Source: Saprospiraceae bacterium (GTDB taxonomy: Bacteria; Bacteroidota; Bacteroidia; Chitinophagales; Saprospiraceae). From it: a stretch of DNA of 37,245 nt. A program made the position numbers and the translations under genes. The stretch's first letter is position 1. Every line of letters starts with the position of its first letter. This document shows positions 12,652-37,245 of the stretch, piece after piece. The stretch spans positions 1-37,245 of the forward strand of contig JAHDDR010000018.1 of the NCBI GenBank assembly GCA_020629255.1, given 5' to 3'. Below the pieces are notes generated by a model that saw only the letters and a program-made list of their open reading frames with translations, ran no database searches and had not been told where the DNA came from.

Positions 12652-13974
12652 TTACAAAAGAACTTTGAAAACATAAAGTAAACTAAAGCCGGTCAAAAAT
12701 ATCATCCCGGCTATACTCAATACTTTCATTTTCATTCCTGGGCGGGCAAATTCTGGTGTATGTTCACTATTGATCAACAAATAGTTCAGCAAGGCATAAA
12801 AAGGAGTGGTGAGAAAAGAAAGAACCGTTGCTATCTTTAATAATGTTCCCATTTCTTGAGCTAAGAAAAGCAGGATAATCATACTACCTGCAACAAGTAT
12901 CGCCATCCAAATCCAATATGCCTTTTGATCTTTTTCATTGAATTCCTTTTCGTTGAAATTACCGATTTTTTGATCATCCAATGTTGTTCTGGTTCCCATG
13001 TGATTAATATCTGGCAATTCCGTTCCTGCAAGCACTGATGCCCGACCCATCACCCTGGGCAAAGCATCCAAGCACGTAAGTGTTGTGCTGAACATGGTTG
13101 TAATGGCTGCTATTCCTACCAGCCAAAAAGCCCATTGGCTTTCGCCGAAAGCTCCAGCATACATACCGAACAATTGTTTAGAAAAACCCAACCCGGACTT
13201 TTCGATGGTCGCTCCGGCACCATACATCACCAAAGCTCCAAGGGAAAGAAAGAAAATAGCCAATACCAATGTAGACCAATACCCGACATTGAAATCGAAA
13301 ATGGACGAACGGTAATCAAAATCTTCTTGGGTTGCTTTTTGTTTGGATTCTGCCCAAATCGAATTCCAAACCGACATATCCACCGGAGCGGGCATCCAAC
13401 CCATGAGTGAAATTAAGAACGCTAGGGTTATTGTATCCGTGGGTATGATTTGTTGCATCTGGATTCCCCCTTCTACTTTTCCGAATGCTAATATTACGGC
13501 TACAAATGTGGATAGGGTGAGTAGTATGATGATGTATTTGATGATATTATCCAAGATGGAATATTTTCCGACATAAAGAATCAGCAAACATAGGGCTAGT
13601 AAAAACCCGGAAACCCACGCCGCACCCAAAGGAATATTGAACATATACATCAATAAATTAGCCGTAAGGGATGTTACTGCCGCTTGGATGGTAAACATAG
13701 TAATCGGTGTAATGAGCAAGTAAGCCCATAGCACCCATTTTCCCATTCGTTTGTATCCCGACAAAATGGTCTCGCCTTTCGCTGCGGTATAACGGGTGCC
13801 GAATTCGAAGAAGGGATATTTAAAAATTAAGATGAGGACAATCGCCCAGAAGAAAGCGAAACCATATTCGGCTCCCGCCCTTGTAGACCAGTATAAGTGC
13901 GATGTGCCTACGGCTGCTCCGGCGAATAAAAGCCCTGGTCCCAGCATTTTCAAAATTTCTCTAACTCGGTTCAT
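12652..13974 (-). CDS. Nramp (SLC11)-family transporter with non-canonical metal-binding motifs
   Basis: Multi-TM 440 aa; GPGLLFAGAAVGTSHLYWSTRAGAEYGFAFFW aligns with Nramp TM1; TM6 region SLMGWMPAPVDMSVW. Confidence 0.85.
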   Translation of the reverse strand: MNRVREILKMLGPGLLFAGAAVGTSHLYWSTRAGAEYGFAFFWAIVLILIFKYPFFEFGTRYTAAKGETILSGYKRMGKWVLWAYLLITPITMFTIQAAVTSLTANLLMYMFNIPLGAAWVSGFLLALCLLILYVGKYSILDNIIKYIIILLTLSTFVAVILAFGKVEGGIQMQQIIPTDTITLAFLISLMGWMPAPVDMSVWNSIWAESKQKATQEDFDYRSSIFDFNVGYWSTLVLAIFFLSLGALVMYGAGATIEKSGLGFSKQLFGMYAGAFGESQWAFWLVGIAAITTMFSTTLTCLDALPRVMGRASVLAGTELPDINHMGTRTTLDDQKIGNFNEKEFNEKDQKAYWIWMAILVAGSMIILLFLAQEMGTLLKIATVLSFLTTPFYALLNYLLINSEHTPEFARPGMKMKVLSIAGMIFLTGFSLLYVFKVLL

Positions 13975-14834: not shown

Positions 14835-15878
14835 TTATCGCCGTCCTTTGTATTTGGATTGATTCAAAATTTTTTGGGCATCTTTGATGGCTATTAAATC
14901 CTGAACCGTTTTTTCGGGATGGTTCTGCATGTATTTATTTACAATTTGCCATCCAATATAATTGGCTACTTTCCCAGGAGCATCGGGTGGCATACCCGGC
15001 GAATGTGGTCCGGGCAATATATATTTCATATAATCTCTTTTCTTCGAATTATAAATCAAATCTTCATTGATTAAGAAACTCCAAATTTCAAATTCATTGT
15101 CCTTGGTCCATTGGGTCTGTGCTCCTGTATATTGAAGTTTCAAAGAATCGGGGGTGTGGGGCAACAGCAAATCCATGAGGTATAATTTTTTCCCATTTTG
15201 AATCATGGCATCCAAAAGGTTTTTTTCTACATTTTCCCCAACTAATTCACCAGCGAATGTTTCCATACTTGCGGTGACCAAATGTTCTGGTGTGAATTTA
15301 GAATATTGGTAATTCGGAAAAATAGATTTATACGCGGGGAAGTCGCTTCCCATATGATGCTCAATTCCAATAGCCAGAATATCATCACCATAAGTAAATC
15401 CTTGGTACGCGAATTCTGTTATACAAGTATAAATCTTAGGTGTTTCCTTCTCCGGAAAATAATATTGATAATATTGCATCGCACTTCCTAATTGTTTTTC
15501 AAAAGATGAAAAATCATTAAAAGCGACCATGCAGGTATCATATAGCATTTTTAATTGAGGCCCTCTCATGAGCCAATCCATTACAAATAATTGTGAAGAA
15601 TCCCTTTGGTTCCGTTCCCTCATGATCTGAGTATAAATTTCAGCAAATTCGGGATGTTCCTCTATTATTTGCTTTGCTTTATTTGCTATCTCAGACGAAT
15701 CCGTATCATACATTTCTTTTTCGAATCGGATAAGTTTCAATTCCGGATTGATGTGTGATACATCCGGAATCTTTTTACCTTTGTCGCAACTCCCCAGTAT
15801 AGATAAAACAATTAATAACATGGCAGCAAATACCCATGCTCTACGTTTGATGTTTGTTATGCCCAATTTATCATTCAT
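14835..15878 (-). CDS. gldB: Gliding motility lipoprotein GldB-like
   Basis: Internal start MNDKLGITNIKRRAWVFAAMLLIVLSILGSC (lipobox); YFPEKETPKIYTCITEFAYQGFTYGDDILAIGIEHHMGSDFPAYKSIFPNYQ and GKVANYIGWQIVNKYMQNHPE. The longer ORF to 16148 would overlap the divergent gene. Confidence 0.75.
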   Translation of the reverse strand: MNDKLGITNIKRRAWVFAAMLLIVLSILGSCDKGKKIPDVSHINPELKLIRFEKEMYDTDSSEIANKAKQIIEEHPEFAEIYTQIMRERNQRDSSQLFVMDWLMRGPQLKMLYDTCMVAFNDFSSFEKQLGSAMQYYQYYFPEKETPKIYTCITEFAYQGFTYGDDILAIGIEHHMGSDFPAYKSIFPNYQYSKFTPEHLVTASMETFAGELVGENVEKNLLDAMIQNGKKLYLMDLLLPHTPDSLKLQYTGAQTQWTKDNEFEIWSFLINEDLIYNSKKRDYMKYILPGPHSPGMPPDAPGKVANYIGWQIVNKYMQNHPEKTVQDLIAIKDAQKILNQSKYKGRR

Positions 15879-15966
15879 TTTAACAACTCGATTTAGGATA
15901 TATATTTCCTCTTTGGATATATTGAGTAATATTAAATCAAAGAAATCAATTTTAAAACACCCGTTT

Positions 15967-16692
15967 ATGAAAAAAATTGCACTTATGTTTGTTTTTGTAG
16001 CTTTCTCGATGATGGCTGCATTCTCCCAAGATGACGGATTCAGGTTTGGAATCCATGCAAGCCCAGGGATCACTTGGTTAGCCAACAATAGCGATAGCGA
16101 AGCTGTTGTTAGTGATGGTACTAGTTTCGGTTTCAAATTCGGAGGCATCGGAGAACTTTATTTCCGAGAAAATTATGCCATCAAATTTGGTGTTGGTATG
16201 TCTTTGGCACAAGGAGGGAATCTTGTTTTCAATACTATTAATTCAGCTATTGATACAGCGGGAGTTGTTCTTTTTGCCGATTCACAACCCGACATCCGTA
16301 CCAATAGCGACAGCCCGAAAGTAAAATTCAGATACCAATACATTGAAGTTCCTATCGGGCTGAAAATGAGAACCAATGAAATGGGTAGTTTCAGATATTA
16401 CGCAGAAATTCCTATTTTGACCATCGGTGTTAACATAGCCGCTCGTGGAGAAATTGATGGTGTAGAGGGAGGAGATTTTAAAATTGCCAAAGATACCGGG
16501 CTCTTCCAAATTTCTTGGGGCTTGGGCGGTGGTGCCGAATATGCCATCAGTGAAACGGTTTCCCTTACAGCAGGGCTGTTTTTCCAAAGCGGTATGGCTA
16601 ACACTTATTTTTCAAAAACCAACAAAGAAGAAATCGATGAGTCAAAAACCATATTGAATGGTATCGACATTCGATTTGGTGTCATGTTCTAA
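15967..16692 (+). CDS. Outer membrane beta-barrel protein (porin/PorT-like)
   Basis: In-frame ATG at 15967 gives signal peptide MKKIALMFVFVAFSMMAAFSQ; alternating barrel pattern, C-terminal IRFGVMF. Confidence 0.75.
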   Translation: MKKIALMFVFVAFSMMAAFSQDDGFRFGIHASPGITWLANNSDSEAVVSDGTSFGFKFGGIGELYFRENYAIKFGVGMSLAQGGNLVFNTINSAIDTAGVVLFADSQPDIRTNSDSPKVKFRYQYIEVPIGLKMRTNEMGSFRYYAEIPILTIGVNIAARGEIDGVEGGDFKIAKDTGLFQISWGLGGGAEYAISETVSLTAGLFFQSGMANTYFSKTNKEEIDESKTILNGIDIRFGVMF

Positions 16693-25994: not shown

Positions 25995-28712
25995 CTACTC
26001 CACTACAAATCGCCCAATGCTTACTTGTTCCCCATCCGATAATCGATAAATATACATTCCTGCACCAAAGGTTGACACCGGCAAAATGATTTCATTGTCA
26101 TCCACATCATTCTGGGTATAAATTTCCTTTCCGGAAACGTCCAGAATTTCTAATGTCATAGATTGGTTCTTGACACTTGCAAAACTCAAGATGGCTCTAT
26201 TTGTTGACGGATTAGGAACCACCTTTGCTCCGAATGGATTCAAGGAAAGGTCCAAAACAGCAGTCGCCTGGGGAACATCCAAACAGGCTTCATCAATTTC
26301 TTTCATCATTTCCTCGTGATCATCATTCACAAAATCCGTGATATTCGCAATACAGATTTGCTCATCAGTTGTTGCACTATAATATACCCGAAGGAAGGGC
26401 ACATAATCTGCATTTTTATCAATATAACTCTCATCATATGACACCCCTATTATTTCATTATTATCATGAAGGATATTCGGATAATAATTCGGAATATGAT
26501 TTGTAATATGACTGATAACCAAACCACTCATATCAAATTCGAAAGAAAGTATTTTACCCGAAGTATTTTTAATTTGGACTTCCACATATCCTTCTTCATC
26601 ATTGATTTCTGAAAGCGTAAGGACTGCCTTGTCGTTAGGGTTGACAATTGAATGGGGGTATTCGCAAGGGGTATGTTGATGATCCGGCGGCAATGATCCC
26701 GTTCCATGTAGTACACAATCATACAATAAGGTCGCATCCATAACGGTAACTTCTCCATCGGCATTCAAATCATTACAGGGTGTGGGTGTTATCGTATCCA
26801 GAAGGCTTTCCAACATATATAAGGTCAGGTCGGAAACGGTTCTAGCCGTATCGGCATTTATGTCTCCTTGCAAAGCAACTCCTGCACAAATGCCCTCACA
26901 ATCGGGTTGGGCATCTCCATACAACACCCCGAGGCAATCTTCATAAGGAGCACATTCTTCCAAAAAGGTAAATGTGGGTTCATTCGATACAGGATCTCTA
27001 CTAATATTGAGGCAAACCTGAGACCAATTGTTTTCATAATCCATTTCTATCCGCCCCAATACATCCGGGCTCTGATCCCAATTCACGCGAACCACAAACA
27101 TGTAATCTCCATCCTCCACGTCAGTGATATCTATCCATTGGCACTCAAGCCCTGAATCATAAATATCACCACATTGTTTCGAAATCCCTTGATCGCCACA
27201 TCCATATTTGGCATCCCCCCCATCGCTACATTCCAAATCCATAACACAGAATCCATTTTTGAATCCGATGGGTAATTCTGTACCATCATCCATATCATAT
27301 AAAACGTATTCTGCATAACCTTCATAATGCCAGTGGTTGTGGCAAGGGTCCCACTCCCATTGGTCATTGGCTTGGGGAGCACCTATATAATAATCGGCAT
27401 TACCTATATTTTTGATGTGGGTGGTAAATCGGATAATATCCCGTTGACCATATCCACTTACACAACCCTCCTCTATAAGACAAGCATCGTTATTGGTGAG
27501 TGTCGTGACATACATGCTTGATACCAAAACATCATCAACAATGATCAAATCCGGACCATCCGGACAATTCGGATCGCCAGGATAAATACAAGAGCCATCA
27601 TCTGAGGTAGCAAGGGGAGAAAAATTGCATGCCATTTCGTCCGTGCATCCTGAAACAGGCCCACCGTATGTCAATGTCCAATTCATTTGTTCATTTGAAC
27701 ATGCCGCATTATCATATTTTATTCTGACATAATAGGTTTGTCCAGCTCCGAATGGAACATTCAAATAAGCGAAATCTGTACTTCCACAACCATCATCCGA
27801 ATAATATATGGTTCCAGCGTTGGTGTCATCCCAATCTAATCCTGAGCAATAATCATATACCCAAATGGTAGAACCACCACAAGTGTTTCCATTACAAGTA
27901 TTAAACTCATACATGCCGGTTTGGGTTGGCATGAAAATATACCATACATTTCCTGCATCAGATGCTTGATTGCCTTCTGCCAAGGGAAAACCATCGCTAC
28001 AAGTCGAACCAGGAGCACAATTGAAATTCGTCGATTCCGAATAACCATAATTTCCGCCGCCTGAAGCCACTTCTTGCCCCGCAACGAGAACCGTATAATT
28101 CGCATTGCCTAACATCCCATCTCCATAACTATCATAAATAGTAAATGTCATACAACCATCTAAAATGATACAATCTGAATACACAAAATCTTGGCCCGAA
28201 CCACTACTTTGATGTATGATTTGTCCATTTGCATCTTTTAAATCCCAAGTAATTTCTCCTGGGTATTCATCTGGATTAATCATCACTTCAAAAGAAATGG
28301 TATTGGGATTGGTACAATCTATTGTCGGGGGATTTCCCGGATTATCGGCACAATTTATTGCTGTCGATTCTTCGTGGCCATAATTTCCACCACCATTGGC
28401 AACTAGTTCTGTTCCCATATAAACCATATAATTTGCCTCACCCAACAAGCCATCACCGAAAGTATCATAAATAGTAAAGACCAGGCATTGTCCATCTGGA
28501 ACACATCCTGTGTAATTAAAATCCGAACCTAGAGCACTTTCATAAATAACATTACCTAGGCTGTCTTGAATATCCCAAGAAATCTCATTCGGAAAACCAT
28601 CGGGTACAATCTGAACCTGAACTTCGATTTCGCCAGTATTGCACTGGGACATCAATGATTCTGAGAATGCAAATAAGAGGAAAAGGGTCAAAAGTTGGTT
28701 AAGGTATTTCAT
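25995..28712 (-). CDS. Secreted multidomain protein: tandem repeats, lysyl-oxidase-like domain, dockerin-like repeats, T9SS C-terminal sorting domain
   Basis: Signal peptide; WEWDPCHNHWHYEGYAEYVLYD, GFKNGFCVMDLEC, CGDIYDSGLECQWIDITDV; GDINADTARTVSDLT...NDLNADGEVTVMDATLL; C-terminal VPNPSTNRAILSF...GMYIYRLSDG. Confidence 0.88.
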   Translation of the reverse strand: MKYLNQLLTLFLLFAFSESLMSQCNTGEIEVQVQIVPDGFPNEISWDIQDSLGNVIYESALGSDFNYTGCVPDGQCLVFTIYDTFGDGLLGEANYMVYMGTELVANGGGNYGHEESTAINCADNPGNPPTIDCTNPNTISFEVMINPDEYPGEITWDLKDANGQIIHQSSGSGQDFVYSDCIILDGCMTFTIYDSYGDGMLGNANYTVLVAGQEVASGGGNYGYSESTNFNCAPGSTCSDGFPLAEGNQASDAGNVWYIFMPTQTGMYEFNTCNGNTCGGSTIWVYDYCSGLDWDDTNAGTIYYSDDGCGSTDFAYLNVPFGAGQTYYVRIKYDNAACSNEQMNWTLTYGGPVSGCTDEMACNFSPLATSDDGSCIYPGDPNCPDGPDLIIVDDVLVSSMYVTTLTNNDACLIEEGCVSGYGQRDIIRFTTHIKNIGNADYYIGAPQANDQWEWDPCHNHWHYEGYAEYVLYDMDDGTELPIGFKNGFCVMDLECSDGGDAKYGCGDQGISKQCGDIYDSGLECQWIDITDVEDGDYMFVVRVNWDQSPDVLGRIEMDYENNWSQVCLNISRDPVSNEPTFTFLEECAPYEDCLGVLYGDAQPDCEGICAGVALQGDINADTARTVSDLTLYMLESLLDTITPTPCNDLNADGEVTVMDATLLYDCVLHGTGSLPPDHQHTPCEYPHSIVNPNDKAVLTLSEINDEEGYVEVQIKNTSGKILSFEFDMSGLVISHITNHIPNYYPNILHDNNEIIGVSYDESYIDKNADYVPFLRVYYSATTDEQICIANITDFVNDDHEEMMKEIDEACLDVPQATAVLDLSLNPFGAKVVPNPSTNRAILSFASVKNQSMTLEILDVSGKEIYTQNDVDDNEIILPVSTFGAGMYIYRLSDGEQVSIGRFVVE
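28014..28643 (-). repeat. Two tandem ~100-aa protein repeats within the 25995-28712 CDS
   Basis: ...FTIYDTFGDGLLGEANYMVYMGTELVANGGGNYGHEESTAINC versus ...FTIYDSYGDGMLGNANYTVLVAGQEVASGGGNYGYSESTNFNC. Confidence 0.9.
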
Positions 28713-35669: not shown

Positions 35670-37245
35670 ATGAAAAATCTCTACCTCACTTTCTTAGGAT
35701 TGTTCTGCTTCGGCTCAACATTAATCGGACAACACGAACACGCTGGCTTCAGATGCGGTTTCGACATGGCAGATAGCCATTCATCGCCCAAATCCATTCA
35801 GTTTGAAGAATGGCTATCTTCGAAACAACACGAAGCCTCTTTTAAAGGAGAGAACAATGAGGAGACTTTGCTTCAACTCCCTATTGTATTCCATATTATA
35901 CATACTGGTGAAGCAATTGGAGTAGGTAAAAACCTTAGCGAAGCCCAAATCCAAGCTCAATTAGATCAAGTGAATTTTGACCTAAGAAGAACGGTTGGAA
36001 CCAGCGGTCACAATACCGATTCGAGAGGAGCAGATACATTCATTGAACTTTTGCCTGCCCTATATGATGAGGATTACAACACGTTACCCGAACCGGGCAT
36101 TAATAGAATCAATGCGGCAGATTTAGGTCTTGGCACAGGAACCTATTCCAAGAGCTACATCAATTCAACCATCAAACCCCTTACACAATGGGATCCTACA
36201 CAATACATCAACGTATGGGTGTGTAATATTTCGGGCATATTGGGTTTTGGTCAATTCCCTGATATTGATCCTACAGTATTAGATGGCATTACCCTAAATG
36301 GAACTGCTACAACCGATGGTCTTGTTTTAACCTATAAGGCTGTCGGTAGTACAGACTCCCCTAACCCTTTGGCGACCGGTTCTTATCTTCCTTACGGAAT
36401 GGGAAGAACATTAACCCATGAATTAGGACACTTTCTAGGTCTTCGCCATATATGGGGCGATGGAGGTTGTACTGTAGATGATTTTTGTGCAGACACCCCT
36501 ACCTCGGATGCGGCTAACTATGGTTGCCCTTCCAGCCATGTTTCTTGCGGAAGCACGGATATGGTTCAAAACTATATGGATTACACCTACGATAACTGTA
36601 TGAATATTTTTACCCAAGATCAAAAATCCAGAATGAGAACCGTACTATACAACTCAGTAAGGAGGGTAGAGCTTTTATCTTCGGATAAAGCTTCACCCCT
36701 TCCCAGCCTTCCGGTAGAATTGATTGATTTTAATGTTAAGCCTACCTCTGACAACAGTGCCTTAATCCAATGGACTACCGCCACCGAATCCCAAAATGAT
36801 TTTTTCATCATTAGCAAGAGTACAGATGGCAGAAACTTTGAGGACATATTCCAAGTACGGGGCCAGGGCGAATCATCTTCGGTAACAGAATATGAATATT
36901 TAGATTCCCATTTAGAATTCGGAGAAACTTATTATCGACTTACACAAGTAGATTTTAATGGCACTACCACTATTTTAGGAACAAAAAGCATTAAGAACGC
37001 CAAAGGTTTTTCTTTTTCCTTGTTTCCCAATCCGATTAGAAATTGGGTAAGTATCAATACTTATGCTACAGAACAAAGCTCTGCCACGGTTAGTATTTTT
37101 GATGCCCAGGGCAAACACATCCACGAACTTGAAATAGAATTCCAACTAGGAGAAAACAACATTCCTATCATATTAAACGATTTGGAAGTCGGAATTTATT
37201 TTATACGTATCACATGTAACAATATCCAGAAATCTATGAGATTTC
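35670..37245 (+). CDS. M43 (pappalysin-like) secreted metalloprotease with T9SS C-terminal sorting domain, 3' end truncated by the window
   Basis: Manual translation from ATG 35670: MKNLYLTFLGLFCFGSTLIGQ...; HELGHFLGLRH at 36417-36449; NYMDY Met-turn; C-terminal FPNPIRNWVSINTY...GIYFIRIT...; open to the window end and absent from the ORF track. Confidence 0.88.
   Translation, partial: MKNLYLTFLGLFCFGSTLIGQHEHAGFRCGFDMADSHSSPKSIQFEEWLSSKQHEASFKGENNEETLLQLPIVFHIIHTGEAIGVGKNLSEAQIQAQLDQVNFDLRRTVGTSGHNTDSRGADTFIELLPALYDEDYNTLPEPGINRINAADLGLGTGTYSKSYINSTIKPLTQWDPTQYINVWVCNISGILGFGQFPDIDPTVLDGITLNGTATTDGLVLTYKAVGSTDSPNPLATGSYLPYGMGRTLTHELGHFLGLRHIWGDGGCTVDDFCADTPTSDAANYGCPSSHVSCGSTDMVQNYMDYTYDNCMNIFTQDQKSRMRTVLYNSVRRVELLSSDKASPLPSLPVELIDFNVKPTSDNSALIQWTTATESQNDFFIISKSTDGRNFEDIFQVRGQGESSSVTEYEYLDSHLEFGETYYRLTQVDFNGTTTILGTKSIKNAKGFSFSLFPNPIRNWVSINTYATEQSSATVSIFDAQGKHIHELEIEFQLGENNIPIILNDLEVGIYFIRITCNNIQKSMRF

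Follow-up and report, generated by a model that had tools for sequence, protein, structure and literature searches.

A lysyl oxidase domain in a multi-domain T9SS-type protein of Saprospiraceae and its Bacteroidota relatives

Lysyl oxidase (LOX) is a copper enzyme that functions in collagen cross-linking in animals. A 37,245-nucleotide stretch of a Saprospiraceae bacterium genome (assembly GCA_020629255.1, contig JAHDDR010000018.1; hereafter the window) carries a gene whose product resembles this enzyme, which raises the question of whether a working lysyl oxidase is encoded and, if so, what it may do outside a bacterial cell. The gene is one intact ORF of 905 amino acids on the minus strand (25995-28712) and the only PF01186 match in its genome (4.38 Mb, 271 contigs). 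The LOX family is already known in bacteria: prokaryotic LOX, including those of Bacteroidetes, were reported in 2015 by Grau-Bove et al. (PMC4448552), as the preliminary description of this DNA had stated in general terms. The T9SS-exported, dockerin-bearing subfamily with animal-type disulfides is little described, and a search of the open literature (subscription literature was outside its scope) found no description of it.

The lysyl oxidase domain and its cofactor residues

The gene holds a true lysyl oxidase domain at residues 386-572, as confirmed by sequence and structure comparisons. Over residues 409-567, the Pfam profile PF01186 (Lysyl_oxidase) scores 118 bits, far above its cut-off of 20.4 (E = 5.8e-34), human LOXL2 (5ze3) is the sole PDB sequence match of the protein (E = 3.7e-24), and a profile of 52 family members matches LOXL2 at E = 5.8e-33. 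An AlphaFold2 (AF2) model of residues 386-572, built from the 52-member alignment, has a mean pLDDT of 92.3 and a pTM of 0.87. In the structural comparison with LOXL2 that the preliminary description had proposed, both chains of 5ze3 are the best Foldseek matches (E = 7.5e-14 to about 1e-13, TM 0.82-0.84, 32% identity), and the next, a CARDB domain, lies far behind. The domain had been placed at 26995-27557 with no strand given; the end of this span is correct, while the in-frame start is 26997, so that the span was two bases too long.

In LOXL2, copper is bound by H626, H628, and H630, and the lysine tyrosylquinone (LTQ) cofactor arises from K653 and Y689 (PMC10532419). The three motifs that had drawn attention to the domain (WEWDPCHNHWH, GFKNGFCVMDLEC, and CGDIYDSGLECQWIDITDV) are all present on the minus strand within the single ORF. 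Residues were mapped through the LOXL2 alignment counted from K653, in which H626, H628, H630, and Y689 fall exactly, and K485 and Y518 are positionally equivalent to K653 and Y689, as expected from the earlier reading that the LTQ Lys/Tyr pair is kept. All five residues (H458, H460, H462, K485, and Y518) are invariant in the 52 family members. The same LOXL2 positions are also invariant in 52 of 52 LOX in a broader comparison, which consists of LOXL2, two Bacteroidota subfamilies, Streptomyces, and Gemmatirosa.

The Asp of WEWD does replace a histidine and the other histidines are kept, as first described, but the replaced residue does not belong to the copper site. It aligns with LOXL2 His623, which is no metal ligand, and loss of a copper ligand through the change from WEWH to WEWD was therefore rejected. 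Bacterial, fungal, and amoebozoan LOX all lack this first histidine, and replacing it reportedly does not eliminate copper binding or activity (PMC4448552). Three non-ligand histidines of LOXL2 (His623, His637, and His652) are not conserved in bacterial LOX; in the Saprospiraceae protein, all three are replaced, His623 by Asp and His652 by Phe. In LOXL2, the substitutions H623Q and H652Q each lower LTQ to less than 50% (PMC9694262), and the absence of these two residues would fit a LOX fold that has been retained as a catalytically dead binding module. However, no member deviates at any of the five cofactor residues, not even divergent ones that lack some of the disulfides; had catalysis been lost, these residues should have disappeared in some of the divergent lineages. 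A dead domain is therefore considered very unlikely.

Export, module order, and distribution

Table 1. Features of the LOX gene with their positions in the window and the basis of each assignment
Feature	Position	Strand	Basis
Whole gene, putatively T9SS-exported multi-domain lysyl oxidase, 905 aa	25995..28712	-	Single intact ORF; PF01186 and T9SS tail; relatives' architecture alike
Signal peptide, residues 1 to ~22	28647..28712	-	By eye from MKYLNQLLTLFLLFAFSESLMSQ; homologues begin alike
N-terminal repeat 1 (SWDI...YDTFGDG...), residues 24-121, unnamed	28350..28643	-	Internal repeat by eye; module also in relatives, e.g., L085
N-terminal repeat 2, residues 133-232, unnamed	28017..28316	-	As repeat 1; aligned across family
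Putative PPC/adhesion-like beta module, residues 233-352	27657..28016	-	By eye; WYxF...TxxWIYDYC...YYxRI conserved in family alignment
Cys-rich linker GCTDEMACNFSPLATSDDGSCIY, residues 355-385	27558..27650	-	Cys conserved in family alignment
Lysyl oxidase domain, residues 386-572	26997..27557	-	PF01186; LOXL2 sequence and profile matches; AF2 model
Copper site C457-H458-N-H460-W-H462 (LOXL2 C625, H626, H628, H630)	27327..27344	-	Invariant in 52 family members
LTQ lysine K485 (LOXL2 K653)	27258..27260	-	Invariant
D516 (LOXL2 D687), candidate active-site residue	27165..27167	-	Apart from the Ca2+-site Glu, the sole acidic residue invariant in 52/52 LOX
LTQ tyrosine Y518 (LOXL2 Y689)	27159..27161	-	Invariant
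Dockerin-like module, residues 611-669	26706..26882	-	Family profile against type I dockerins; two helices in model
Cohesin-like beta module (tentative), residues 687-812	26277..26654	-	AF2 model and Foldseek
T9SS type A C-terminal sorting domain, residues 832-904	26001..26219	-	TIGR04183; profile and structure matches

The T9SS tail noticed at the outset is matched by TIGR04183 with 46.8 bits (cut-off 23; E = 2.1e-12), by a profile comparison with the solved T9SS substrate CTD 8glk (E = 2.1e-8), and by its model, whose structure matches are the T9SS CTDs 8qb1 and 8glk. The genome has a T9SS translocon component, as indicated by a SprA_N match (E = 5.1e-164), and at least 150 T9SS-tail matches. 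The dockerin-like repeats claimed from the letters alone are weak in the single sequence, where the Pfam match lies below its cut-off (E = 0.044), and gain support from the family profile, which matches the type I dockerins 1daq (CelS; E = 2.5e-4) and 2mte (E = 2.7e-4). Residues 687-812 are modelled with confidence (pLDDT about 91-96 for the greater part of the module), and Foldseek ranks the cohesin-FnIII construct 2w1n first (E = 4.2e-9) but with a low global TM (0.25), so the module is called cohesin-like only tentatively. This module has no sequence match, the PPC/adhesion-like module has no Pfam match, and N-terminal repeat 1 has no Pfam family above its cut-off.

The combination with dockerin-like repeats and a sorting tail had seemed unusual; it is instead the standard layout in a large subfamily of Bacteroidota proteins, for which 80 loci were retrieved, and not the oddity of one genome. 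The order of parts is common to 39 full-length relatives (the window's protein included), with PF01186 in 39 of 39 and the T9SS tail in 31-32. In about 16 marine loci (among them L017, L018, L020, L023, L027, L028, L033, L034, L039, L042, L048, L050, L051, and L055), a GC-type dockerin-like tail (...LLVLSAFGTVC) replaces the T9SS type A tail, which suggests an alternative anchoring route.

Relatives of the gene were confirmed 155 times in GTDB representative contigs, and 80 of these loci were kept. The organism names of the 80 loci with the LOX domain fit Bacteroidota, except for two contigs (L023 and L072) that carry an archaeal label (PBNL01, 'Euryarchaeota archaeon isolate SP189') and LOX genes close to those of Flavobacteriales; PBNL01 is probably a misassigned or contaminated MAG. 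The nearest relatives are Saprospiraceae MAGs with 83-72% identity across the LOX domain. The domain occurs in 65 of 299 genomes of the order, and any PF01186 match in 4 of 393 genomes drawn evenly across the phylum (the window's own genome counted). Within one genus, the gene is present in some genomes and missing from others: in the congener G005, recO adjoins sucA with no LOX gene between them, while in G007 the LOX gene adjoins sucA. Since about four in five genomes of the order are without the gene and the congener shows a clean absence, the LOX gene is accessory, with precise presence and absence. The gene was sought in phage records and viral contigs and was not found there, and spread by viruses or phages was rejected on this basis. 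At L014 and at L060, a pair of subfamily LOX genes lies close together on a single contig, and the second copy in L014 has 47% identity to the window's LOX domain.

The LOX gene is flanked by recO and sucA, and the neighborhood also includes a diacylglycerol kinase and a tRNA-methyltransferase-like gene, so a functional operon was rejected. Neither a copper chaperone nor an obvious substrate gene was found next door; a Nramp-type metal transporter-like protein is encoded 13 kb from the LOX gene (12652-13974, minus strand), with no sign of linkage. At relatives' loci, an S46-like peptidase (by eye; 30 loci) and a large secreted protein (18 loci) recur as neighbors, mainly in marine Flavobacteriales, and are read as shared descent. 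These surroundings also bear on whether the sequence could derive from animal DNA or resemble LOX by chance, for which the human enzyme being the sole PDB match might be taken as a hint. The ORF is intact, ends in a bacterial T9SS tail, and sits between recO and sucA; moreover, the same domain occurs in the 80 kept Bacteroidota loci, and its identity to LOXL2 is 37%. Animal contamination was rejected on these grounds, and we give it, together with chance resemblance, practically no weight.

Relation to known lysyl oxidases

The Saprospiraceae protein shares with LOXL2 the fold, the three copper histidines, the LTQ Lys/Tyr pair, the eight cysteines of the core disulfides, and the Ca2+-site residues D549, E722, and D724. 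Unlike LOXL2, it has no SRCR domains and bears repeat, dockerin-like, cohesin-like, and T9SS modules. With the prokaryotic LOX of Grau-Bove et al., it has in common the family, the copper His triad, the LTQ pair, and the missing first histidine; in contrast, all but three of the prokaryotic proteins in that survey consist of a LOX domain alone, with or without a signal peptide or membrane segment, and its main text says nothing of disulfides or dockerins (PMC4448552).

LOX-domain identity to LOXL2 is 36-39% in typical members of the subfamily and 34% in one divergent member, compared to 27-30% in Streptomyces and Gemmatirosa and 21-26% in a second Bacteroidota subfamily. The Streptomyces and Gemmatirosa proteins (L107-L110) keep the copper triad and LTQ Lys/Tyr but lack several of the four LOXL2 disulfides: three are missing in Streptomyces, which keeps at most the 657-673 pair, and two in Gemmatirosa, where 573-625 and 657-673 remain. 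Long secreted proteins make up the second Bacteroidota subfamily (L095-L104, e.g., L099, L098, L100, and L097), which also occurs in the order; they keep the copper and LTQ residues, have a different set of cysteines without C625, C685, and C695, and form a separate clade; one locus (L097) has two neighboring copies.

In trees, LOXL2 is placed beside the window's subfamily with support of 99/97, or 90/80 with more rows, and the support drops to 61/52 once one long row and the columns of the eight cysteines are taken out. Clear sisterhood with animal LOX was not upheld, as the tree signal lies mostly in the cysteine columns. Because of this signal, the long branch of LOXL2, and the absence of non-animal eukaryotic LOX from the rows, the claim is limited to the subfamily being the most animal-like among the prokaryotic LOX tested. 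A bolder reading, in which the subfamily is both an extracellular protein cross-linker with the disulfide-braced core of animal LOX and the nearest living prokaryotic relative of animal LOX through a horizontally transferred ancestor, appears unlikely; if true, the cross-linking of animal matrix and of bacterial surfaces or matrix would derive from that common ancestor.

The core disulfides of LOXL2 are 573-625, 579-695, 657-673, and 663-685, with an additional fifth at 732-746 (PMC9180022). All eight core cysteines are present in the Saprospiraceae protein and invariant across the 52-member alignment, and the corresponding bonds 411-457, 417-524, 489-505, and 495-514 are predicted; of the fifth pair, C732-C746, the bacterial side keeps C567. 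As the number of disulfides is highly variable among LOX according to the authors of the study of HTU-LOX, a Haloterrigena turkmenica enzyme (PMC6452851), the complete conservation of the eight cysteines is notable. Covariation of cysteines across the whole family was uninformative, since those of the second subfamily align unstably, and losses within the window's subfamily were used instead. Three subfamily members (L111, L112, and L113 from G485, G465, and G476) have lost both Cys 657 and Cys 673, and L112 and L113 have lost both Cys 579 and Cys 695 as well, while all catalytic residues are retained. Cysteine losses within the subfamily thus occur solely as LOXL2 disulfide partners. Only 3 of the 105 possible pairings of eight cysteines leave no half-pair in the subfamily, a count that rests on about two loss events because L112 and L113 are closely related; the LOXL2 pattern is among the three and the bovine LOX pattern is not. 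These losses support the disulfide pairing of the LOXL2 crystal structure over that reported for bovine LOX.

The alignment also bears on a second question about human LOX, the active-site base, which is still to be assigned and for which 13 conserved acidic candidates have been listed (PMC9659206). The residues identical in 52 of 52 LOX are H626, H628, H630, K653, D687, Y689, Y708, E722, and N728 (LOXL2 numbering). E722 is part of the LOXL2 Ca2+ site (PMC9659206), and Y708 and N728, within GxY and NN motifs, are what we take to be structural residues. D687 lies two residues ahead of the LTQ tyrosine and is, as a prediction from conservation, a candidate active-site base; it could equally have a role in LTQ formation instead. 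Its invariance would narrow the 13 acidic candidates to Asp687, a residue unmentioned in PMC9659206, and an open-literature search for D687 with LOXL2 returned no paper about the LOXL2 active site. Because the literature examined holds no structure of mature, catalytically competent human LOXL2 (PMC9659206), bacterial homologues with a LOXL2-type cysteine core may be useful for the study of the human enzyme.

Possible roles outside the cell

The protein is probably an active, copper- and LTQ-dependent amine oxidase that is exported through the T9SS to the cell surface or beyond. Homology, the predicted fold, the invariant copper, LTQ, and disulfide residues, the export signal, SprA, and the many T9SS cargos form the basis of this reading, from which we infer copper loading, formation of LTQ and of the disulfides, and catalysis. 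Amine oxidase activity is likely by analogy, because an archaeal homologue of simple architecture, HTU-LOX, is an active amine oxidase that is stimulated by copper, inhibited by 3-aminopropionitrile, and able to oxidize lysine polypeptides (PMC6452851). According to its authors' description, HTU-LOX has cofactor residues like those of the Saprospiraceae LOX. It differs in being archaeal, in its simple architecture and relaxed substrate range, and in its cryptic native role. H. turkmenica cells have no detectable amine oxidase activity (PMC6452851); this counts against the reading, as do the replaced His623 and His652, the lack of a match to a collagen-like protein in the genome, and the accessory distribution of the gene.

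In the proposed sequence of events, the Sec signal would be removed and the LOX domain would fold in the oxidizing periplasm, where the four LOXL2-type disulfides may close and one copper may be bound by the three histidines. K485 and Y518 would self-process with O2 to lysine tyrosylquinone. At the cell surface, primary amines, most likely the epsilon-amino groups of protein lysines, would be converted to aldehydes with release of H2O2 and NH3. More tentatively, the aldehydes could form cross-links in surface or matrix proteins of the same cell, and the repeats and the dockerin-like and cohesin-like modules around the LOX domain might place the enzyme on its substrate or anchor it.

Cross-linking of surface or matrix proteins, which the tethering modules fit, is proposed with caution, its chance being put at a little under even, and stands slightly ahead of a role in using amines, making H2O2, or deaminating antibiotics. 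An active secreted LOX could alternatively serve nutrition or competition, by drawing on polyamines, peptides, or polymer-bound lysine for their amine nitrogen, by producing H2O2, or by destroying amine antibiotics, which we regard as possible at roughly one chance in three. The relaxed specificity of HTU-LOX, which oxidizes many amines including aminoglycosides and polymyxin (PMC6452851), is consistent with such a role, as are the patchy distribution suited to an accessory trait, the housekeeping neighbors with no matrix operon, and a search of the genome for a collagen-like partner, in which none was found. On the other hand, the subfamily is closer to the animal-type core than the other bacterial LOX compared, the substrates of animal LOX are proteins, and the regular adhesion and anchoring modules resemble a surface-tethered protein modifier more than a free amine scavenger. 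The preferred reading of cross-linking concerns a large, conserved LOX group that is clearly addressed outside the cell, and the idea is testable in a culturable relative.

The window also encodes an M43 (pappalysin-like) metallopeptidase, which is another T9SS cargo and is truncated by the window end (35670-37244, plus strand), and a GldB-like gliding motility lipoprotein (14835-16148, minus strand; PF25594, E = 3.5e-93).
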